Positions 2-47,398 of a stretch of DNA of 64,000 nt are shown in pieces. Below the pieces are notes generated by a model. That model did no database searches and was not told where the DNA came from. It saw only the letters and a program-made list of their open reading frames with translations. This DNA comes from Prochlorococcus sp. AG-363-B04. GTDB taxonomy: Bacteria > Cyanobacteriota > Cyanobacteriia > PCC-6307 > Cyanobiaceae. The stretch is taken from positions 1-64,000 of the forward strand of contig QCFC01000010.1 in the NCBI GenBank assembly GCA_003278465.1, written 5' to 3'. Each line of letters begins with the position of its first letter. Position 1 is the first letter of the stretch. A program made the translations under genes and the position numbers.

Positions 2-2317
2 GAACAAGCAGTCAAAATCCAAGAATCACAAGAAGATGAATATATTGCAGTTGAGCATCTATTGCTTTCACTAGCAAAAGACAAACGTTGCGTTAAAGAT
101 ATACTCAACAAATCAGGCTTAGACGCAAAGACTTTAAGCAAAGAAATCGATTCTATACGTGGTAACCAAAAAGTGACTGATCAAAATCCCGAGTCAAAAT
201 ATGAATCCCTAGAAAAATACGGAAGAGATCTCACTAAATCCGCTCGAGAAGGCAAATTAGATCCTGTAATAGGTAGAGACGATGAGATTAGGAGAACAAT
301 TCAAATTCTTAGCCGAAGAACAAAAAATAATCCTGTATTAATAGGTGAACCAGGTGTAGGAAAAACTGCAATTGTGGAAGGACTTGCGCAAAGGATTGTC
401 AATGGTGACGTCCCATCAGCCTTAGAAAACCGTCAATTAATTGCATTAGATATGGGGGCATTAATTGCAGGTGCAAAATACCGAGGTGAATTCGAAGAGA
501 GGCTAAAAGCAGTCCTAAAAGAAGTTACGGGCTCTGACGGCCAAATCGTTCTTTTTATAGATGAAATTCATACTGTTGTTGGGGCTGGGGCTACAGGAGG
601 GGCTATGGATGCTAGTAACCTGCTTAAACCCATGCTTGCCAGAGGGGAGCTTCGATGCATTGGTGCAACAACTATCAACGAACATAAGCAACACATTGAA
701 AAAGATCCTGCACTAGAAAGAAGATTTCAGCAGGTATTAATAAATCAACCCACAGTTGAAGATACTATTTCAATTCTTAGAGGTCTTAAAGAGCGTTATG
801 AAGTCCATCATGGTGTGCGAATTGCAGACAGCGCACTTGTTGCTGCCGCTGTCCTCAGTAACCGCTACATCGCAGATCGGTTTCTTCCTGACAAAGCAAT
901 TGATCTTATTGACGAATCAGCAGCAAAATTAAAAATGGATATCACATCAAAACCTGAAGAAATAGATGAAGTCGATCGAAAAATTCTGCAAATTGAAATG
1001 GAGAAGCTTTCTCTACAACAAGAGTCAGATTCCGCAAGTAAAGAACGACTTAAGAAACTTCATCGTGAGTTAACTGAATTATCAGGAGTCCAAAGACTCC
1101 TAAAAGAGCAATGGCAACAAGAAAAGGATGCAATAAATCAGATCTCCTCATTTAAAGAGGAGATAGAACAAGTTCAATTACAAATAGAACAGTCAAAGCG
1201 GAATTATGATCTTAATAAAGCCGCCGAACTTGAATATGGTACTCTTTGCGATCTACAGAAAGAACTTGCCAATAGAGAGAACAATTTAGCTGAAGAGAAT
1301 AAAAACAAACAAAGATCAATTCTTAGAGAAGAAGTCATCGAAGAAGATATTGCAGAAGTTGTGGGTAAATGGACTGGCATCCCAGTTTCAAGATTAGTTC
1401 AATCAGAAATGGAGAAACTTCTTCAACTTCAATCGACACTTAATAAACGTGTTATTGGTCAAGAAAAAGCAGTTCAAGTTATAGCAGATGCAATTCAAAG
1501 ATCCAGAGCAGGTTTGAGCGACCCATGCAGACCTATAGCAAGCTTTCTTTTTCTTGGCCCCACTGGTGTAGGGAAGACAGAACTTTCAAAAGTACTTGCT
1601 TCAGAATTATTTGACAGCGAAAATTCTTTAATTCGAATTGACATGTCTGAATATATGGAAAAACACTCTGTAAGCCGCTTAATAGGAGCCCCACCTGGAT
1701 ATATTGGCTATGAAGCAGGAGGGCAATTAACGGAGTCAATAAGAAGACGTCCATACGCTGTAATTCTTTTTGACGAAATAGAAAAGGCTCACAAAGATGT
1801 CTTTAATATCATGCTTCAAATCCTTGATGATGGTAGAGTTACAGATGGGCAAGGTCGAACAATAAATTTTACAAACACAATAATCATAATTACTAGTAAT
1901 ATAGGTAGCGATTCAATTATTAATCTATCCCATGAAGATAATAATTACCAAAAGATAGAGGATACAGTAAACAAGGCTTTACAAGAAACCTTTAGACCAG
2001 AGTTCCTCAATCGCCTAGACGAGGTATCAATTTTTCATAGGTTAGGGATAAATGAATTAAAAAAAATTGTTAATCTGCAGGTGGTAAAGATTAGGGAAAG
2101 ACTTAACGAACTTAATTTAGATTTAGAAATCAGTAATTCAGCTACCGAGTGGCTTGCCAGAAAAGGATTTGATCCAATATATGGGGCCAGGCCTCTAAAA
2201 AGAGCGCTACAACGTGAACTGGAAACACCTATAGCAAAACTCATCCTAAGAAATCAATATTCAAATGGTCAGAATATAATAGTAAAGGAAAAAGACAACA
2301 GGCTTGAGTTTAATTAA
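2..2317 (+). CDS. clpB: ClpB-type AAA+ disaggregase (5' partial)
   Basis: Hexameric cytosolic chaperone that works with DnaK to pull apart aggregated proteins. The reading frame is open from base 2, so the start lies before the window; about 771 residues are visible of the usual 860 or so. Visible in order: end of the Clp N domain, first AAA module with Walker [10 protein letters not shown] (near base 343) and Walker B LFIDEIH (near 550), a charged coiled-coil M domain (about 960-1350) that separates ClpB from ClpA and ClpX, and second AAA module with Walker [10 protein letters not shown] (near 1557) and a typical ClpB C-terminus. An internal TTG at base 62 is not the start, because N-domain sequence continues in frame upstream of it. 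Cyanobacteria usually hold two clpB paralogues; I cannot say which this is. Confidence 0.96.
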
Positions 2318-2756
2318 AGTTTGACTAAGGATATTGACACTGTTAATAGGATACTCTCTCTATTAACTTCCGCTGAACGATCATCTCCGCTCAGAAGATT
2401 CACGAAAAAAGAAAAATCATGCAAATATCTATAGCTGAACAATCTATAAGAAAACCTATCAAAGGCAAGATTGTAGGTGTATTCAAATCCAAGAGATCAA
2501 CAAGCCAATTGAAGTTACAAATCCTTCCCAAGTAAATATTAACAAATAATCGGTAGAAAAGAAGCCAAGAAAATCATATGCAGATACTTAATCTCAGAAA
2601 ACTTAAAGAGACTAGCCTTCCTTTGTAAAATGAGATTTGGTTTAATTAATCCTCAACAATATTAGCCAGTAAATAATTACGATAAACTGCAAACTTTCAT
2701 GCCTTAAATAGTAGACATAAGATAAGGTTACTTCAATTTTCTTATACCTGGATTCA
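2318..2756. other. Non-coding stretch between clpB and the queD-like gene
   Basis: About 440 bases without a convincing gene. The only open frame with an ATG is a 38-codon one at 2419-2535 on the plus strand (MQISIAEQS...); it has no clear ribosome binding site and I do not recognise it. The base composition is AT-rich like other intergenic DNA here. No RNA gene was recognised. Confidence 0.5.
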
Positions 2757-2802
2757 CAAAAGCCCGTTAGAGATTAAGACTTTATACCTACTCTAAAGGG
2801 CT
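2757..2802 (-). terminator. Rho-independent terminator of the queD-like gene
   Basis: On the minus strand a 12-bp inverted repeat (2791-2802 with 2761-2772, one mismatch, 18-base loop) is followed by TTTT. The 5' arm overlaps the last codons and stop of the queD-like gene, so the hairpin sits exactly at its end. Confidence 0.6.
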
Positions 2803-3269
2803 CCCTTGAACCAATCAGGAAGGCACTCAAAACTAGCAGTATTTATCTCGTTTTCTCTAGCATCAACACGCCAACAACAAGATCTGCCACTATCTCTACT
2901 GTGCAAAAGGGAATTAGACCATTCCCATACAAGCTCTGCACTGGCTTCCATTCCGACATTTCTCATAATTCTCAAGTCCAACGCCCCGCGATCATGAAGA
3001 CTCTTCCATTCCATTAGAAGTGGATCGTCCTGATTAACCAAAAAAGTATGATCAAATTGCGCTCTAATCTTTTCTTCTAAGGGACTCAAGCTAGAGAAAT
3101 CAACCACAAACCCATAATCATCAAGTTCTTTCGCCACAAAAAAAACAATGAAGCTTCTACTGTAGCCATGTACAAATCGACAATGTCCAGAATGTTTCCA
3201 TTGCCTGTGAGAACAGGGATAATCTTTAAAATGCTTGCTACAGGTGTATTTAAAAAGATTCATGAGCAT
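2793..3269 (-). CDS. 6-pyruvoyl-tetrahydropterin synthase / QueD family protein
   Basis: 158 residues, T-fold pterin enzyme family. Family members convert dihydroneopterin triphosphate (the FolE product) to 6-carboxytetrahydropterin for queuosine or to 6-pyruvoyl-tetrahydropterin. Visible: an early His (CSHRQW), then GHCRFVHGYSRSF, which aligns with the family CxxxHGHxY zinc/catalytic block, and HDRGALD late in the protein. The second His of the usual HGH is Tyr here, so one of three expected zinc ligands appears lost; activity is uncertain. The start is ATG at 3269, with another ATG two codons in; neither has a clear ribosome binding site. Divergent from hisIE. The possible loss of folE in this genome bears on its substrate supply. 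Confidence 0.75.
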   Translation of the reverse strand: MLMNLFKYTCSKHFKDYPCSHRQWKHSGHCRFVHGYSRSFIVFFVAKELDDYGFVVDFSSLSPLEEKIRAQFDHTFLVNQDDPLLMEWKSLHDRGALDLRIMRNVGMEASAELVWEWSNSLLHSRDSGRSCCWRVDARENEINTASFECLPDWFKGAL

Positions 3270-3334
3270 TTAAATCATCGATAAAAAATCAAAGCAAAGG
3301 ATCAGCACCCAATTTTTAATTCTATTGAAGAAAA

Positions 3335-4003
3335 ATGCACCGCTTTAAAACTGATTTCATAGACCAACTTCGTTTCAATGAAAATGGCCTAATTCCTGCC
3401 ATTGCACAAGATTGGATCGATGGAACAGTACTCATGCTTGCCTGGATGAATCGATCTGCCATTGAACACACCATTAAAAGTGGAGAGGTTCACTATTGGA
3501 GTCGAACCCGACAGGAACTCTGGCATAAAGGATCAACAAGTGGTCACACCCAAACCCTCAAAGGCATTAGATACGATTGCGACTCTGATGTATTACTTAT
3601 AACAATTGAACAAACCGGTAATGTTGCTTGTCATACAGGTGAACGAAGTTGTTTTTTTAATCAAGCAGAAGATACTGAGCCGGACTCTGTCCTTTCAAAG
3701 GAACCACCCTCAAATATTTGCAGTGACCTCTTCGCCACAATCAAAAGCCGTCTTAACTCAGAGGTTGCTGGGAGCTATACCAAGCATTTATTCAACGAAG
3801 GAGACAATCTGATCTTAAAGAAAATTGGAGAAGAAAGTACTGAATTTGTTATGGCTTGCATGGAAAATAACTCGGAATCAATAGCTAATGAGGCTGCAGA
3901 TCTTATCTTTCATTTAGAAGTAGCCCTTGCAAACAAAAACGTTGATTTAAGACGTGTTTTAGAAATTTTAGCTAATAGGAGAGGAGGACCGAGGCGCTTC
4001 TAA
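3335..4003 (+). CDS. hisI: Bifunctional phosphoribosyl-AMP cyclohydrolase / phosphoribosyl-ATP pyrophosphatase
   Basis: Second and third steps of histidine synthesis in one 222-residue cytosolic protein (HisIE form). Residues 1-115 are the cyclohydrolase domain: HYWSRTRQELWHKGSTSGH carries the family W-x-KG-x-TSGH signature, and the YDCDSD and GNVACHTGERSCFF segments supply the zinc cysteines. Residues 125-222 are the pyrophosphatase domain with the acidic helix GEESTEFVMA and NEAADLIFH, ending in the usual basic RRGGPRRF tail. Length is normal for the fusion. It is not in a his operon; hisG lies separately at 21,367. Confidence 0.96.
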   Translation: MHRFKTDFIDQLRFNENGLIPAIAQDWIDGTVLMLAWMNRSAIEHTIKSGEVHYWSRTRQELWHKGSTSGHTQTLKGIRYDCDSDVLLITIEQTGNVACHTGERSCFFNQAEDTEPDSVLSKEPPSNICSDLFATIKSRLNSEVAGSYTKHLFNEGDNLILKKIGEESTEFVMACMENNSESIANEAADLIFHLEVALANKNVDLRRVLEILANRRGGPRRF

Positions 4004-4092
4004 GAAAAAGAATTAATCCAACTCCTACAGACTATTGAACATGATACATACAATCTAGCGTCACTCGGAAGAGATAGATATAGAGTATCAAG

Positions 4093-4599
4093 CTAAGAAT
4101 TCAAACCAATACCTCTAGACATAAAAGTCGCAAAAACAGGAATAAGAGCGAATCCAATAATCTCAATATTTATTATTATTCCTAGTCGAGAAGTCTTTTG
4201 AAGACTTAGCTTAGGCAATTCTCCTTTACTAAGGGGAAAAGCCCAAAATATATATGTAATGGTAGGGTAAAGAGACAATAATCCAACAAATATAAAAGTC
4301 CCAACTTTCCACCAAAATATAGGGTTCTGAGTGTAAAAATAACTGCCTTGGCCAAAATACAATACTCTTAAAATCCCTGTAATCAATAATGTCAAACCGG
4401 CAACACCATAAAACACATCAGTCACAAGCATTGAAATGGCTTCAAATCGGTTTGGATCAGCCTTCAACAATTTCCTCTCAAGAACCAAACTTGCAAAACA
4501 AATCATGAAGCTTAGATAATGCAAATAGGCAACCAAGGCATTTTGGGTGATTTCAGGCATTAGCAAATTCCCTAACAAGAAAGAAATAAATTCAATCAT
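4093..4599 (-). CDS. DUF2214 family membrane protein
   Basis: A small integral membrane protein of unknown function, conserved in cyanobacteria and proteobacteria. Four hydrophobic segments can be seen (near residues 14-32, 52-72, 88-108 and 125-150), with the family-like stretch ALVAYLHYLSFMICFASLVLERKLL early on. The frame can be extended upstream to a TTG at 4683, but the added 28 residues are polar and low-complexity; the ATG at 4599 gives a protein starting just before the first membrane segment, so I prefer it. Convergent with hisIE; the 5' side faces the sigma factor gene. Confidence 0.78.
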   Translation of the reverse strand: MIEFISFLLGNLLMPEITQNALVAYLHYLSFMICFASLVLERKLLKADPNRFEAISMLVTDVFYGVAGLTLLITGILRVLYFGQGSYFYTQNPIFWWKVGTFIFVGLLSLYPTITYIFWAFPLSKGELPKLSLQKTSRLGIIINIEIIGFALIPVFATFMSRGIGLNS

Positions 4600-4786
4600 T
4601 ATCTCATTAGGCTGATCTAGCTTGGAAAAAGAAAACTCAGTCTTAGTAGAGGACAAGGTGGGTGAAGAATCCTCAAATCTCAAATGAGATGTTCAATAAA
4701 GAATAAAAAATGAATTCCGAACTCTTTCTTACACAATAAAGATGCAAAGACTTTGCCTCTAGGTTCAAATAAGAACTAAGACTCTT

Positions 4787-5725
4787 ATGGTGAGTTCATT
4801 AAGTGCATTCCTCAGTGAAATTGGACGCCACCAACTTTTAACTCCCGAGGAAGAGCTGACGATGGGACGAAAAGTACAAGCAATGGTGGCAATAACTGAT
4901 CGCTGTCAAATGGCCGGAGGGAAAGGACCTAAATGTGAATACTCAGCGGAAGAACGCAAAACAATTCGTATAGGGGAAAAAGCTAAAAATCACATGATCA
5001 CATCAAACTTAAGATTGGTAGTCAATTTAGCTAAACGTTATCAAGGGAAAGGGCTTGAACTGCTTGACCTCATACAAGAAGGGACTTTAGGTCTGACAAG
5101 AGCAGTAGAAAAATATGACCCAACAAGAGGGCATCGGTTTTCTACATATGCTTATTGGTGGATCCGTCAAGGACTTAACAGAGCACTATCTACCCAAAGT
5201 AGAACCATCCGAATCCCAGTGAATGTGAATGAAAAGTTAACCAAACTAAGAGCTGCAAAATCAAAACTAATGCAAGCGAATGGAAACACGCCAACTGCAC
5301 GCCAAATTGCAAGCTTAATGAAAGTTCCTCTTCAAGAAGTCGAAGAGCTCATGGCCTGCGAATTAAGAAGTATCACCTTAAGTCTTCAAGGGGTTATCAG
5401 GTCAAAAGTAGACCCATCAGAGCTGGGAGATGTTTTACCTAGCGAACAAGTCGCGCCAATGGAACTAGCTGAATTGGCGGAGCGCAGCGAATCTGTTTGG
5501 ACCTTAATAAATTGTGCAAACCTAACTCCAAAAGAAAGGATGGTAATAACACTTAGATTTGGTTTGGATGGTTCGAATGAATGGCGAACCTTGGCAGAAG
5601 TAGCACGTCACATGAATTGTAGTAGAGAATACTGTAGACAAGTTGTTCACAGAGGTATTCGCAAACTTCGTAAAACTGGAATCCAAACTGGTCTATTAGA
5701 GAGCAATATAAATGATAATAATTAG
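4787..5725 (+). CDS. Group 2 (RpoD-like, non-primary) sigma-70 factor
   Basis: 312-residue RNA polymerase sigma subunit. Region 1.2 (residues 1-30, FLSEIGRHQLLTPEEE), a short charged insert with two Cys, region 2 with the core-binding and -10 recognition helices (LDLIQEGTLGLTRAVEKYD through FSTYAYWWIRQGL, about 90-135), region 3, and region 4 helix-turn-helix (LTPKERMVITLRFGL to EYCRQVVHRGIRKLR, about 245-300) are all present. It lacks the long acidic region 1.1 of the primary factor, so it is one of the several group 2 factors that picocyanobacteria use for stress, light or diel control. Which one cannot be told from this sequence alone. ATG start. Confidence 0.93.
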   Translation: MVSSLSAFLSEIGRHQLLTPEEELTMGRKVQAMVAITDRCQMAGGKGPKCEYSAEERKTIRIGEKAKNHMITSNLRLVVNLAKRYQGKGLELLDLIQEGTLGLTRAVEKYDPTRGHRFSTYAYWWIRQGLNRALSTQSRTIRIPVNVNEKLTKLRAAKSKLMQANGNTPTARQIASLMKVPLQEVEELMACELRSITLSLQGVIRSKVDPSELGDVLPSEQVAPMELAELAERSESVWTLINCANLTPKERMVITLRFGLDGSNEWRTLAEVARHMNCSREYCRQVVHRGIRKLRKTGIQTGLLESNINDNN

Positions 5726-5818
5726 TAATACCTCCTACTAAAACCACCCATCTCAAATACATACATGACATGATGAAATACAAATCTCCAATCATTTAAA
5801 TGCTTTCGACTTTTTCCC

Positions 5819-6190
5819 ATGAATCCTGAATCACAATCAGCCAACAAAACAGTTGATGCAACTGTTATTGATAGCTCCGTAATAGATGAGGAAGTATTTC
5901 TGAAGGTTATAAAAAGGGCTGGTCGAATCATCGCCAAGCCAGCATTTGAAGCCATGGAAATGCTTATCGATCCAACAACACCGGCTCAAGCTAGAGTCAC
6001 AATGATTGCAGCACTAACATATTTATTAGTCCCAATAGACCTAATGCCAGACTTCATTCCTGTGGCTGGTTTTAGTGATGATTTAGTTGCATTAACTGCT
6101 GCCCTAAGTGTTTGGAGCAATAACATGACTCCAGCAATAAGAAGAAGGGCAGAGCTAAAACTAGACAAATGGTTCCCTATCATTCGCTAA
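5819..6190 (+). CDS. DUF1232 / YkvA family small membrane protein
   Basis: 123 residues. The core of the family is clear: a hydrophobic hairpin with ALTYLLVPIDLMPDFIP followed by GFSDDLVAL (residues 64-91). Function in the family is unknown. The stop overlaps the ATG of the next gene by one base (TAATG), so the two are probably co-translated. Residues 1-45 are polar and not conserved in any family I recognise. Confidence 0.82.
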   Translation: MNPESQSANKTVDATVIDSSVIDEEVFLKVIKRAGRIIAKPAFEAMEMLIDPTTPAQARVTMIAALTYLLVPIDLMPDFIPVAGFSDDLVALTAALSVWSNNMTPAIRRRAELKLDKWFPIIR

Positions 6191-6540
6191 TGAAAACATG
6201 GTCCTCCCAAGAAGAAGAAGAGCTATCCAGTCTTATTAAGGATTGGCTTAAACAACAAAATCGTACTCAAGCAGACTTACGTCAGAGCCTTAATGCCCTT
6301 TCTTCACGAATGCCTGCCTTATTAGAAGTTATTGAAAAAGAATACCGGGCAGGAGGGATTATTAAAGTTGCTGCTCGGCTTTGCGCAATTGAAGCTGAAT
6401 GGTATGAAGAAGACGCAGGCAAGAAAATAGATAATGGTGATCAAAGTAAAGCTTCTATGGATTCTATGGGTTCTATGGATCCCTTTAATCAACTTGATTT
6501 CCTGCTGCAAACCATTAGAGATGATTGCAGTGAAGTTTAA
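6190..6540 (+). CDS. Conserved hypothetical protein, coupled to the YkvA-like gene
   Basis: 116 residues from the ATG at 6190 that overlaps the preceding stop by one base; translational coupling decides this start over an in-frame upstream TTG or GTG. Mostly helical and acidic, with no membrane segment. I recognise no domain. Near the C-terminus a nine-base unit is repeated three times (6453-6479), giving SMDSMGSMD. Probably a picocyanobacterial orphan family; function unknown. Confidence 0.65.
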   Translation: MKTWSSQEEEELSSLIKDWLKQQNRTQADLRQSLNALSSRMPALLEVIEKEYRAGGIIKVAARLCAIEAEWYEEDAGKKIDNGDQSKASMDSMGSMDPFNQLDFLLQTIRDDCSEV

Positions 6541-6603
6541 TTGATAATGCTTCATTAAATAGCAAGATGTATTATCTATATAAGAATTTAATATTAGAAG
6601 TCA

Positions 6604-7134
6604 TTAGAGTTGTTCGTCCCAAAATAAAGCCAGCCAAATTGTTCCACTTCCAGAATCAGTATGCTCTACACGATGAGAGCTATAAGGCAATAAATGCAAT
6701 TGATCACCGACATTTAGATCAACAATATGATTATCTTTTTTAAACCGCAACCTGGCGCTACCTCTAAGAATTAATATCCATTCATGCTCCTCTTGTTCAT
6801 ACCAAAAGTTTTCCTGGCTGCATGCAGCACAAGAAACAATCAACTCGAGCCGCCAACCTTTCCCAAAATGAAGGACGCGATTAGTTTCATGGCCAGTTGA
6901 TGGAACCGGCTCCCTTAGCAAATTTTCTACTCCTTGAAAATCAGATGCTGGTTCAAGTTCACCCCAGCGTCGACCAATTTCAAACCCCCATGATCTTGCT
7001 AGCTCCACAACCTCATTGTGATCTTTGCAAGAGGACAATTCATCCTTCCTTCCCTGAACATCCTCAAGAGAAGAAGCCATCTTTTGCAACTGATCAACCT
7101 TCAGGAGAAATCGTTGTAGGTCTACATCAGTCAT
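6604..7134 (-). CDS. Nif11-like domain fused to a cupin domain
   Basis: 176 residues. Residues 1-55 (start TDVDLQRFLLKVDQ, then AREL-like helix VVELARSWGFEIG) match the Nif11-like leader domain, a helical unit known from nitrogen-fixation loci and from the leaders of cyanobacterial lanthipeptide precursors. Residues 95-170 form a cupin barrel: EQEEHEWILILRGSARL, then VGDQLHLLPYSSHRVEHT, with His/Glu positions for a metal. No double-glycine cleavage site or Cys-rich core follows, so it is not a peptide precursor. ATG at 7134 is chosen because GAGAGG lies seven bases upstream; a frame extension to 7161 lacks one. The substrate is unknown. Confidence 0.8.
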   Translation of the reverse strand: MTDVDLQRFLLKVDQLQKMASSLEDVQGRKDELSSCKDHNEVVELARSWGFEIGRRWGELEPASDFQGVENLLREPVPSTGHETNRVLHFGKGWRLELIVSCAACSQENFWYEQEEHEWILILRGSARLRFKKDNHIVDLNVGDQLHLLPYSSHRVEHTDSGSGTIWLALFWDEQL

Positions 7135-7274
7135 AAAATTTTCCTCTCTATTTGGTGGCATATACTCATGAAACAGAACATATCCAATTCACAACCAATA
7201 CAACAAAAGCTTTACTAAGTTCAATAGAGGCTAGAAAGAAACTTGCAAGAAACAACATTAAACTGTTGTCCAGT

Positions 7275-25671: not shown

Positions 25672-25721
25672 GAAAAATTCAATTTAATTACTTTGGGCCT
25701 TGTAAAATTGAGTTGGAATGG

Positions 25722-25973
25722 TTATCCGTCTGGAGTCCAATAGTCAATAATTCCTCCAATAGTTAAATCAGTCTGAATTGAAGGGTCTGGACAAGCAAAG
25801 CGCGCAGCCGAGCCACTAGCTGTAAAAACCCAATTCCCTTCACGTGCTCCAACTGGATCAACGGCAACCAATTGTTTCCCCTTGTTATTCCGGAGAATCC
25901 GAAGATGCATATGACCTAGGCCAGCAACCCTCTGAGAACAAACAAGACGACCCATAACTTGCATGATCTCCAT
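25722..25973 (-). CDS. csoS4B: CsoS4B, pentameric carboxysome vertex protein
   Basis: 83 residues of the BMV/EutN-CcmL fold that caps the twelve vertices of the carboxysome. MGRLVCSQRVAGLGHMHLRIL and the GAREGNWVFTASGSAAR and TIGGIIDYW segments are characteristic. The ATG at 25973 overlaps the stop of csoS4A (TAATG). Needed in small amounts. Confidence 0.95.
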   Translation of the reverse strand: MEIMQVMGRLVCSQRVAGLGHMHLRILRNNKGKQLVAVDPVGAREGNWVFTASGSAARFACPDPSIQTDLTIGGIIDYWTPDG

Positions 25974-26248
25974 TAATTTGAGCTCACATTTACTGGCTTT
26001 GAATTATCAGGATCCCAATGATCAATAATTCCAACAATAGTGAGGTCACTTGGATAAGACTTGCTTCCCGCCGCCTCTCTAGCAGCAGAACTTCCAACAC
26101 AAATCACCCAATCATCTGGTTTACATCCAACAGCATCAACTGCGACTTTTTTTGAACTCCCATCTAAGACAACTTGAAGATGCTTATGTTCAAAGCCAGG
26201 AATCCTGTTGGTTGAAACGAGTGGCTTAACGACCTTACAAATCAGCAT
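25973..26248 (-). CDS. csoS4A: CsoS4A, pentameric carboxysome vertex protein
   Basis: 91 residues, paralogue of CsoS4B: CKVVKPLVSTNRIPGFEHKH, GCKPDDWVICVGSSAAREAAG, TIVGIIDHWDP. Start ATG at 26248 is one base from the csoSCA stop at 26250, and its stop overlaps the csoS4B start, so csoSCA-csoS4A-csoS4B are tightly coupled. Confidence 0.95.
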   Translation of the reverse strand: MLICKVVKPLVSTNRIPGFEHKHLQVVLDGSSKKVAVDAVGCKPDDWVICVGSSAAREAAGSKSYPSDLTIVGIIDHWDPDNSKPVNVSSN

Positions 26249-43086: not shown

Positions 43087-43752
43087 ATGGGATATAACTC
43101 ATCTCTCGCAGTAAAGATCTGCGGAATCACACAAATATCTCAAGCCAAAGCAATTGCCTCCTTAGGGGTAAATGCAATTGGAGTTATTGGAGTAAAAAGG
43201 TCTGCAAGGTTTATTCACGAAGAAAAGAGGAGAGAGATTTTTTCTTCTCTTAAAAAATCTCATCCCAAAATTCAACGAGTCTGGGTAATAGCAGATTTAG
43301 AGGAAACAGATATACAACGGGCTCTTCAAGGTGAAGGAACTCCATCAGTTATTCAACTTCACGGAGAAGAACCCAAGCTCCTTTGCAGGCAACTAAAAAT
43401 TAAATACCCCAAACATCAATGGTGGAAAGCTGTTCGACTTAAATCAGCAGAAGACTTACTTAAAGCGAATCAGTATTTAGGTTCTGTTGATGCTCTTCTT
43501 CTAGATGCTTGGTCCAGCAATCAACTAGGAGGAACTGGGAACAGGCTAGAACTTGAATGGTTTAAGAAATTTCCTCCTCAATTACCCTGGTGGCTTGCTG
43601 GCGGCATTTCACATGAATGGATCCCTGAAATATTTAAAAATGTCAATCCATTTGGTATTGATGCATCTAGCCGGCTTGAGAAAGAGCCTGGCATTAAGGA
43701 CTTAAATCTTGTTAAAAAGTTAATTGAAGCAATTGAAAACCAAACAAAATAA
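43087..43752 (+). CDS. trpF: Phosphoribosylanthranilate isomerase
   Basis: Third step of the tryptophan branch. 221-residue TIM barrel: VKICGITQISQAKAIASLGVNAIGVI at the start (read as two blocks, with catalytic Cys), VIQLHGEE, LLLDAWSSNQLGGTGNR with the catalytic Asp, LAGGISHEWIPE and GIDASSRLEKEPGIKD for phosphate. Length and motifs are normal. Convergent with folE. Confidence 0.95.
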   Translation: MGYNSSLAVKICGITQISQAKAIASLGVNAIGVIGVKRSARFIHEEKRREIFSSLKKSHPKIQRVWVIADLEETDIQRALQGEGTPSVIQLHGEEPKLLCRQLKIKYPKHQWWKAVRLKSAEDLLKANQYLGSVDALLLDAWSSNQLGGTGNRLELEWFKKFPPQLPWWLAGGISHEWIPEIFKNVNPFGIDASSRLEKEPGIKDLNLVKKLIEAIENQTK

Positions 43753-43858: not shown

Positions 43859-44602
43859 CTAAAGCAGTTTCTTGCTGTTTAACAAGCTAAAGAATTCTTG
43901 CTTAAGGCTAGAGTCATGCCTAAAATCTCCTCTAACTACTGAATTAACCATGCTGCAATGTTGTTCTTTAACTCCGCGCAATTTCATACAATAATGCTGT
44001 GCCTTTAAAATTATTCCAACTCCTTGAGGCTCACATAACCTCTCTATTTCGTCAGCCAAAATCATTACTGCCTCTTCTTGAATATGCGGCCTAGAGAAAA
44101 CCCAATCAGCCACCCTTGCAAACTTTGAAAGACCTATAACTCTGGAGCCTGGCTTAATACCAATCCAACAGCTTCCCATGATAGGCACAAAGTGATGAGA
44201 GCACGCTGATCTAACAGTAATAGGTCAAACTGTATAGATCTCATCTAGATTCTTTACGTTAGGGAAGCTGGTTACTTTTGGCTGTTGATGATATCTACCT
44301 TTAAAGACTTCATGTATATACATTCTGGCAACTCTCTGAGCTGTTTCTTCAGTATTATGATCATTATCTATATCTATTACCAGACTCTCCAGAAGATCTC
44401 TCATGCGTTGTTCCACTTCTAATTAAAGCTCGGCCAGTTCTCCTGGCTCTATGCAATTAGAAACATTATCATTAGCAAAGAAAGAAACCCCTTGGGCTTG
44501 CAATCGTAAGCGAATACGTTCAGAAACTTTTGCTACTTTATTGAGCGATTTATCATCTAGCATATTTTTTTGGTTTGAAAAAGAAGGAGAAGTCGATGTC
44601 AT
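43859..44602 (-). pseudogene. folE: GTP cyclohydrolase I interrupted by two in-frame stops
   Basis: A full 247-codon folE frame running from ATG 44602 to TAG 43859 with no insertion or deletion. Two nonsense codons break it: TAA at codon 60 (44423-44425), after GELAEL, and TGA at codon 126 (44225-44227), where the family has Gly in YTVGPITVRSACSHH (GGA to TGA is one base change). All else is conserved: SACSHHFVPI, the zinc Cys/His, GLSKFARVADWVFSRP, HYCMKLRGV. FolE makes dihydroneopterin triphosphate, first step of folate and pterins. Fragments from GTG 44416 and GTG 44188 could still be made but neither holds the whole zinc site. Recent pseudogene, sequence error, or readthrough. Confidence 0.9.
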
Positions 44603-44611
44603 AACAGCAAT

Positions 44612-45319
44612 TTAAAAAGCACCAGCAGATGGCATTAATGTCAAGTCTTCAATTACCTGATTAGGCGGTTGTTGTGACAGGTAATATAGAGCTTCGGCAA
44701 CCTGTTTTACAGGAAGCATTGCATCCCTATCAAAATCACTTTTCACGGTCTCAGACTCCCAAAGAGTACTGTTTACAGCACCTAAGGTGAGAGTACATGC
44801 ACGGATTCCATTTGTACGTTCCTCTTCAGCTAAGCACTTAGTAAATGTATCTAATGCAGCCTTTGAAGTGCAATATGCGCCCCACTGAGGAAAAACATTT
44901 CTAGATGCATGACTGCTGACATTAATAATCAATCCCCCTTTACCTCTCATAAGGGGTACAACTAAGGAACAAATCTGAAAAATACTGGTCAAGTTCATCT
45001 GAAAGAGCCACTGCCAACTATCAACTGGCATGGAAAGCAAGTCTCCAGTCCACGCCACGCCAGCATTATTAACCAATAGTGAAGGACGTTTCCCTTGTGC
45101 AAGAAGATTTTTCAAACCTGAAAGGACCAATTCCGGCTTGGAAAGATCAATACACTGATAATGAACAGTTCGACCAATTAGCGAGAGCTCCTGAGAAAGA
45201 GACTGAAGAGACTTTTCATTTCTAGCCACCAAGAGTAAATCCCAACCTTTTTCTGCAAATAGCTTTGCTGAAGCTCTCCCTATCCCTCTTGATGCGCCTG
45301 TAATTAGGGCCGTAGCCAA
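44612..45319 (-). CDS. Short-chain dehydrogenase/reductase
   Basis: 235 residues. Rossmann motif TGASRGIGRASA (7-18), NNAGVAW, catalytic Ser and YCTSKAALD (Tyr-x-x-x-Lys). The start is TTG at 45319, as no ATG is near the motif. Cyanobacterial homologues lie next to accA and folE; the substrate is unproven, and 3-ketoacyl or pterin-type reductases are both possible. Same strand as accA (24-base gap) and folE (9-base gap), suggesting an operon. Confidence 0.88.
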   Translation of the reverse strand: MATALITGASRGIGRASAKLFAEKGWDLLLVARNEKSLQSLSQELSLIGRTVHYQCIDLSKPELVLSGLKNLLAQGKRPSLLVNNAGVAWTGDLLSMPVDSWQWLFQMNLTSIFQICSLVVPLMRGKGGLIINVSSHASRNVFPQWGAYCTSKAALDTFTKCLAEEERTNGIRACTLTLGAVNSTLWESETVKSDFDRDAMLPVKQVAEALYYLSQQPPNQVIEDLTLMPSAGAF

Positions 45320-45343: not shown

Positions 45344-46333
45344 CTAGGCAGACTTTTCAGTTTCTGAGTCTCTTGATTCAATTACTCTTCCCATGGCTCT
45401 AAATTTTCTATATCGAGCTTCAAGTAAACGATCTGTAGAAAGCCTTGTAAGTTCATCAAGATGACGCTCTATCGCATCCCTAAGAACCTCACCAGCACTC
45501 AAAGGTGCCCAATTATTGCCACCAGCTGGTTCAGGCAAGACCTCATCAACCACACCAAGATTTAATAAATCTGATCCAGTGATTTTTAATGCAGCAGCAG
45601 CCTCAGGAGCCTTTGCTGCATCCCTCCATAAAATCGAAGCACAAGCTTCGGGGCTAGCAACTGTATAAACACTATGTTCAAACATAAGGAGTCGATCAGC
45701 AACTCCTATACCCAAAGCTCCTCCTGAACCTCCTTCCCCAATAACTGTTGCGATCACAGGAACTCTCAGCCTGAACATCTCACGAAGATTGACAGCAATT
45801 GCCTCCCCTTGCCCTTGTTCTTCAGCCAAAAGGCCTGCATAAGCTCCTGGAGTGTCTATAAAAGTCAATATTGGCAATTTGAATCTATCCGCATGCTCCA
45901 TTAGCCTCAACGCCTTTCTGTAACCCCCTGGAGTTGCCATCCCAAAATTTCTTGCGACATTTTCTTTGGTATCTCTTCCCTTCTGTTGTCCAATTAGCAT
46001 TACAGCTCTTTGACCAATTCGACCGATACCTCCGATCAAAGCTTTGTCATCGCTTCCACTTCTATCACCATGCAACTCAACCCAGTCTTCACAAAACATT
46101 TGGATAAAATCTAAAGTACTGGGTCTATGAGGATGGCGAGCAACTTGAATTTTCTGTGCAGGTGTTAAAGCCTGAAAAATTTCTTCCCTTCTTCTAGCTG
46201 CGAGAGTTTCAAGCTGTAATAACTGCTGACTAACATCAACTTCTGAATCTCGAGCAAGTTCACGAATCTGCTCAATCTGCTTTTCTAGCTCTACAAGAGG
46301 CTTTTCAAACTCCAATAAGTATCTGCGAGCCAT
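45344..46333 (-). CDS. accA: Acetyl-CoA carboxylase carboxyltransferase subunit alpha
   Basis: 329 residues. With AccD it moves the carboxyl group from carboxybiotin to acetyl-CoA for fatty acid synthesis. [27 protein letters not shown] (two blocks), [46 protein letters not shown] and [19 protein letters not shown] are the crotonase-fold core. Lies 24 bases after aar. Confidence 0.98.
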
Positions 46334-46357: not shown

Positions 46358-47398
46358 TCAGGCCATTGCTGCCTGAATTTGATTTTTTAGATTAAGTGTC
46401 GAGAATCCATGTCTAACAGAAGCTTCGCCAATAAAATCCATCTTTTCAAGTGTGATGTTATTTCGCCCCCAACTGAAATTGGTATGACATTCCTCAAACT
46501 CAAGAATCATTGCTTCTGCAAAACAAGCAAACATCTGCCGATGAGGTCTTTCCATCTCAGCAAGCTGCATCATATTCCAACCAATATCCTTAAAGAATTC
46601 AACGATCCCTCCTTTTAAAATATGTATTCCATCTCCTGAGAACTTGGAATCCAAATTCTTCGGATAACCACCATCAATCATCAAACAAGGCCTTTGAAGG
46701 CAATTTGGGTCTATTTGCAGAGTCTTAGGCATACTTGCGACCCAAATAACTGCATCAGCCTGAGGCAATGCATCTTCTAGGCTCATAACTTGCCCTGATC
46801 CAAGCTGGTTCTGAAGTTCTAATAAGGGTTTTTGCTGCCTTGCGACTAATAAAAGCTCACCAACTTCTGTTCGATTATTCAGCCATCGACATATTGCACT
46901 ACCAATGTCACCAGTTGCTCCAATCACAGCCACTCGGGCTTTTTTTAAATCAATTCCAACCATTGGAGCATTAATTTCTAATTGACGGCATATAACCCAA
47001 GCAGTATGAGTATTGCCTGTAGTAAATCTTTCCCATTGAAGAGTGGTATTCCTCACGTGCTTGTGCTGGAGAAGATTGAAGTTCTCAAAAATAATCGAGG
47101 TAAAGCCTCCTAAAGCTGTTATGTTGATTCCCTTTTTCTGAGCCAACTCCATAGCATTGAGAACTTTACGCCTGGCAGTTTTAAATCTGCTGAGCATTTC
47201 AGGAACAAAACAAGAATCGATATAGGCACCTTCTATAGTTTTTCCAACAGCACTTGTAACGGTTACATGCTCAACAAGCTGAGGAGGTGCACTACACCAA
47301 ACATCTAGGTCACCATCAGCTATATGGTCATATCCAAGTTCAAGAGCCTTTCTCTTGGCGTCACCAAAATTAGTTGAGTGTCCTATAAGGCCAAACAT
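46358..47398 (-). CDS. aar: Long-chain acyl-[acyl carrier protein] reductase
   Basis: Reduces acyl-ACP to fatty aldehyde with NADPH, the first step of cyanobacterial alkane synthesis. 346 residues. NADPH site [16 protein letters not shown] (158-173), and Cys292 in FACFAEA is at the place of the acyl-thioester Cys294 of the Synechococcus enzyme. [18 protein letters not shown] start is typical. Paired with ado upstream. Confidence 0.97.

Follow-up and report, generated by a model that had tools for sequence, protein, structure and literature searches.

Two nonsense codons inactivate folE in a low-light Prochlorococcus-like genome, at an apparent site of recurrent folE loss

In cyanobacteria the gene order ado-aar-accA-SDR-folE has been described (PMC4094844), and Prochlorococcus is listed with FolE, FolB, FolP, FolK and FolC (PMC1971073). 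A further point of reference is the pseudogene left by xenologous displacement, in which the original locus decays and a divergent homologue resides elsewhere in the genome; when essential genes are displaced by divergent homologues in this way, the event is generally deduced from its end states. We analyse here a window of 64,000 nucleotides, positions 1-64000 of contig C10 (70.9 kb; 70,853 bases) in a 1.50 Mb genome assembly (G000; 41 contigs, 77.9% complete). The order and orientation of the described cluster are identical in the window, but its folE is broken here and has been deleted in several relatives. Named relatives sharing the extended order ado-aar-accA-SDR-folE-trpF belong to Prochlorococcus and Synechococcus. 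The relevant features of the window are:

2793..3269, minus strand: QueD/PTPS-like gene, putative consumer of the FolE product (PF01242, E 5.2e-22)
43087..43752, plus strand: trpF, convergent downstream neighbour of folE (PF00697)
43859..44602, minus strand: folE remnant (GTP cyclohydrolase I), the "type A" copy at the canonical locus, identified by translation, PF01227 (E 1.5e-44) and tree placement
43862..44224, minus strand: longest leftover piece of folE, codons 127-247, keeping CSHH and HYCM, with the N-terminal half absent
44225..44227, minus strand: TGA at folE codon 126
44423..44425, minus strand: TAA at folE codon 60
44612..45319, minus strand: short-chain dehydrogenase (SDR), conserved upstream neighbour of folE (PF00106 and synteny)
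45344..46333, minus strand: accA, within the ado-aar-accA-SDR-folE block (PF03255)
46358..47398, minus strand: acyl-ACP reductase (aar), assigned from its position beside the decarbonylase gene, dehydrogenase-type Pfam matches and the order in PMC4094844
47542..48273, minus strand: aldehyde decarbonylase, ado (PF11266)

The preliminary description of this DNA reported a full-length folE carrying two in-frame stops and no indel, and re-translation recovers the same TAA at codon 60 and TGA at codon 126 within a frame of 248 codons (247 residues) that ends in TAG. Homology is continuous on both sides of the nonsense codons. The frame aligns without a break to the FolE structures PDB 4du6 and 1fbx with the zinc and active-site motifs (CSHH, HYC) present, the CSHH and HYCM segments are unbroken as had been stated, and the Pfam GTP_cyclohydroI match runs across the TGA, the read-through frame scoring 151.3 bits against a cut-off of 27. 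The window gene therefore shares with FolE of type IA (PF01227, TIGR00063; PDB 1FBX, E. coli) its motifs, family and full-length frame, but differs in being interrupted by TAA and TGA, so that each uninterrupted piece spans at most about half of the domain. The longest piece reaches 106.6 bits, the TIGR00063 cut-off being 181.6. All three pieces and the read-through frame fall under the NCBIfam equivalog cut-offs, which cannot separate a broken from a working folE because intact FolE proteins of the second lineage discussed below fall short of them as well. Codon 126 is a glycine in 107 of 107 relatives, encoded by GGA in 51 of them, in agreement with the earlier reading of a GGA to TGA change at a family-conserved residue, and that change is a single step. 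Codon 60 is more variable (Glu in 79, Gln in 26 and Gly in 2 of the 107), and its TAA could have arisen from GAA or CAA; AG-409-M05, which has the nearest intact FolE, carries CAA. We conclude that the folE of the window is inactivated and that its stops are genuine in the assembly.

Nonsynonymous differences amount to 0.146 between the window and G014 and likewise to 0.146 between G014 and G021, the broken folE thus not standing above its intact sister, and terminal branches on the tree are equal (0.32 for the broken gene and 0.33 for the intact sister). Because pS is 0.6-0.8, close to saturation at synonymous sites, a dN/dS test of relaxation has low power. The window folE has 13 states unseen in 107 relatives, both stops included, while two intact relatives have 10-11, and its C-terminus is altered (FSLLNSKKLL), which together hint at some drift. 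As amino-acid change is not in excess, any relaxation of selection on this gene would be recent or unproven. About 4.5% of one-step changes in the intact sister folE create a stop, so that a modest number of mutations free of selection could account for both nonsense changes.

In phylogenetic analysis the window folE groups with those of deep low-light Prochlorococcus, and the same locus is damaged in other genomes of this kind. The canonical folE of Prochlorococcus AG-409-B05 (G021; contig L041) is interrupted by a single TGA within its N-terminal region, and that of G103 by a TAG and two frame breaks. A further 14 genomes, in which the SDR-trpF junction can be read, have no folE left at this site, SDR and trpF lying 2-278 bp apart, while in G026 the canonical folE is also gone and trpF does not adjoin SDR either. 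On a tree of accA, SDR and trpF proteins, whose deep parts are weakly supported, loci with intact, broken (three) and deleted folE are interspersed, which indicates that folE was lost several times. Judging from these sequences, the SDR-folE-trpF site is one of recurrent folE loss in low-light Prochlorococcus. No phage DNA match to the folE locus was found. The broken canonical folE of G103 lies at about 6531-7245 of L143 (G103:C13), and a second folE was not found in that 85%-complete genome. On L144 (G001:C17:9000-28000), from Prochlorococcus AG-363-A16, the folE-accA-ado block occurs twice in an inverted duplication that is probably an amplification chimera.

A second folE lineage, termed type B, forms a single clade among FolE proteins (100/100 in the first tree; 99/97 with viral sequences added). 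In many low-light genomes type B is sited apart from SDR and trpF, and among 22 type-B genomes compared no pair shares both immediate neighbours. In the group L067-L109 and in L072, L087 and L089 it occupies the canonical locus, where the close relative L106 has type A, a distribution which points to replacement in place. In sets of genomes whose accA is 87% identical in both cases, type-B pairs are 91% and type-A pairs 80% identical; this gap would fit a more recent spread of type B, or a stronger constraint on it. AG-409-B05 carries an intact type B, which lies beside rpsD, in addition to its stop-bearing type A. Because rpsD is single-copy in this genome, nothing obvious marks the type-B contig as that of a second cell.

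Two candidate routes for type B were rejected. Viral FolE proteins form a clade of their own outside types A and B, which speaks against a virus as the source, and a tRNA-linked insertion does not hold as a general mechanism, tRNA-Thr adjoining type B in one group only. In annotated phages FolE identity is at most 54% among the matches listed. Nine IMG/VR contigs (L199-L206, L214) encode a FolE about 70% identical to the picocyanobacterial protein and make up one clade near A and B. Two Cyanobiaceae genomes (L002, G342:C80; L003, G119:C82) hold a FolE 34% identical to that of the window, probably through contamination or as a foreign gene.

A second intact folE, which the preliminary description had listed solely as an observation that would undo its reading, is present in relatives but was not found in the 78%-complete assembly of the window's genome, where the broken frame is the only folE found. 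On flanking proteins the window groups with G026 (support 0.915), which is 99% complete, has type B and lacks the canonical gene. The essential single-copy gene rpsD, found in 15 of 20 genomes searched, is missing from the window's assembly, which implies that the region bearing type B in AG-409-B05 is unsequenced in the window's genome. Two type-B contexts were present in sampled stretches of this genome, and folE was not found in either. Contig C19 was considered as a type-B site as it starts near a type-B-flanking gene, and was set aside because its first bases resemble another gene. A run of small genes like that beside type-B folE in relatives, without folE, lies on L270 (G000:C4:1-20000, 993-7217) and resembles a flexible island. 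Taken from sequence comparison, a second folE copy would be the likeliest explanation of the broken one, and we infer that the cell had type B in a region of its genome that the assembly does not cover.

We thus posit, as the probable explanation, that the window holds an ancestral type-A folE recently inactivated in a low-light Prochlorococcus-like cell, one of several losses that followed displacement by type B. Type B, a separately evolved FolE lineage, would have been gained at varying chromosomal places, by relocation or transfer; this gain may have relaxed selection on type A; and the canonical gene would then have been inactivated by stops and frame breaks, or deleted, independently several times. 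Seen directly are the two stops, the independent lesions and clean deletions in relatives, the intact type B at scattered places, and a genome carrying the two types together. Against displacement stands the fact that a second folE is unseen in the assembled 78% of the window's genome, and that G103 likewise has no visible replacement. The pattern of a decaying old locus with a divergent homologue elsewhere, typical of xenologous displacement, is directly seen in AG-409-B05. It departs from the usual cases in two respects: a core housekeeping gene appears to have moved again and again, its neighbourhood differing among all 22 genomes, and for the window's own genome the replacement is deduced from relatives.

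A bolder form of this proposal, to which we give somewhat less than even chances, is that type-B folE is nomadic, a core gene borne on mobile or flexible-island DNA which entered low-light Prochlorococcus lineages repeatedly and at different places and caused the independent losses of the ancestral folE. If so, the window and AG-409-B05 would be intermediates caught in mid-displacement. It is rather unlikely, though well worth weighing, that types A and B are instead an old paralogous pair of the Prochlorococcus ancestor that was differentially lost, type B having been scrambled by rearrangement rather than transferred. The monophyly and wide distribution of type B and the readiness with which flexible regions rearrange are in keeping with such a pair. 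The greater identity among type-B than among type-A pairs speaks against it, although this may owe something to stronger constraint on B, as does type B sitting at the canonical locus where L106 has type A. As a variant of displacement by type B, the paralogous pair would still make the window folE a dying copy.

That both stops are sequencing or amplification errors, and the cell's folE intact, is improbable. The window's genome, in its 41 contigs and 78% completeness, resembles single-cell assemblies among the relatives, and the remainder of the folE frame is without excess decay, both of which would suit an artefact. A check for damage drew on the proteins of three related contigs and of part of a fourth, and covered 60,266 of the 70,853 contig bases. 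Here folE alone had stops within a homologous match; other in-frame stops lay in upstream extensions, at terminal ends, or in a weak match to a paralogue beside a 92% match. The earlier statement that the other genes are undamaged, and the region not generally of low quality, accordingly holds for these testable bases. A random sequencing fault is unlikely since folE alone carries internal stops in the checkable ~60 kb. By a rough estimate (744 bases over 60 kb, squared), two random errors would both fall in this 744-base gene about once in 10,000 cases, and the same gene is independently broken or deleted in relatives. The fragmented draft genome leaves a small chance of an artefact.

Slightly less probable again is a true folate auxotrophy, in which FolE activity is gone and folate or pterins are taken up. 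The preliminary description had offered FolE2, folate uptake, readthrough or loss of the pathway as ways in which the cell might live with a broken folE. FolE2 (GCYH-IB, PF02649), the BT1 folate carrier and folK were all, like a second folE, not found in the 78%-complete assembly, which taken at face value would agree with auxotrophy; pathway loss remains unlikely and readthrough (below) unsupported. These absences fit the 22% of sequence that is missing. The folP and metH genes are intact in this genome, and the QueD-like protein noted at 2793 is indeed a member of the PTPS family. Of 40 relatives, 33 carry folK, among them all 11 at >=90% completeness; it is retained by those without canonical folE, several of its carriers having no folE that was found. 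Across 400 family members folE was found in 245 of the 251 with a completeness of 90% or more and in 107 of the 149 others; since these counts track listed completeness (compared by eye), its absence is about what incompleteness predicts. The presence of FolE in nearly all complete relatives, and the listing of the pathway proteins for Prochlorococcus cited above, also argue against auxotrophy.

Readthrough or recoding that preserves a full-length FolE is highly implausible, even with a frame otherwise kept and amino-acid change not in excess, given that two different stop codons would need reading, that TAA and TGA end 32 of the 41 window genes checked (TAA 16, TGA 16, TAG 9), that no suppressor tRNA was seen in ~470 kb (the window contig and 400 kb of the same genome), and that in relatives this site bears deletions, frame breaks and a TAG instead of conserved stops.

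Displacement by a divergent homologue is a kind of event already known; what is unusual here is that several of its stages are visible together for a core gene, and that the placement of the replacement varies. No description of folE displacement in Prochlorococcus was found in the open-access literature, which is weak evidence as subscription papers were mostly outside its scope. Intact, stop-bearing, frame-broken and deleted states of folE coexist at one locus in related marine cells, making the order of events (new gene gained, old gene decaying) testable for a housekeeping pathway in a highly abundant photosynthetic organism. Nor should auxotrophy be read from a core gene that is found broken in an incomplete genome. 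Elsewhere in the window, positions 25707-26248 hold a pair of small neighbouring paralogues, with about 43% and 93% identity to the same protein of a relative, which are carboxysome-vertex-like and appear ordinary.
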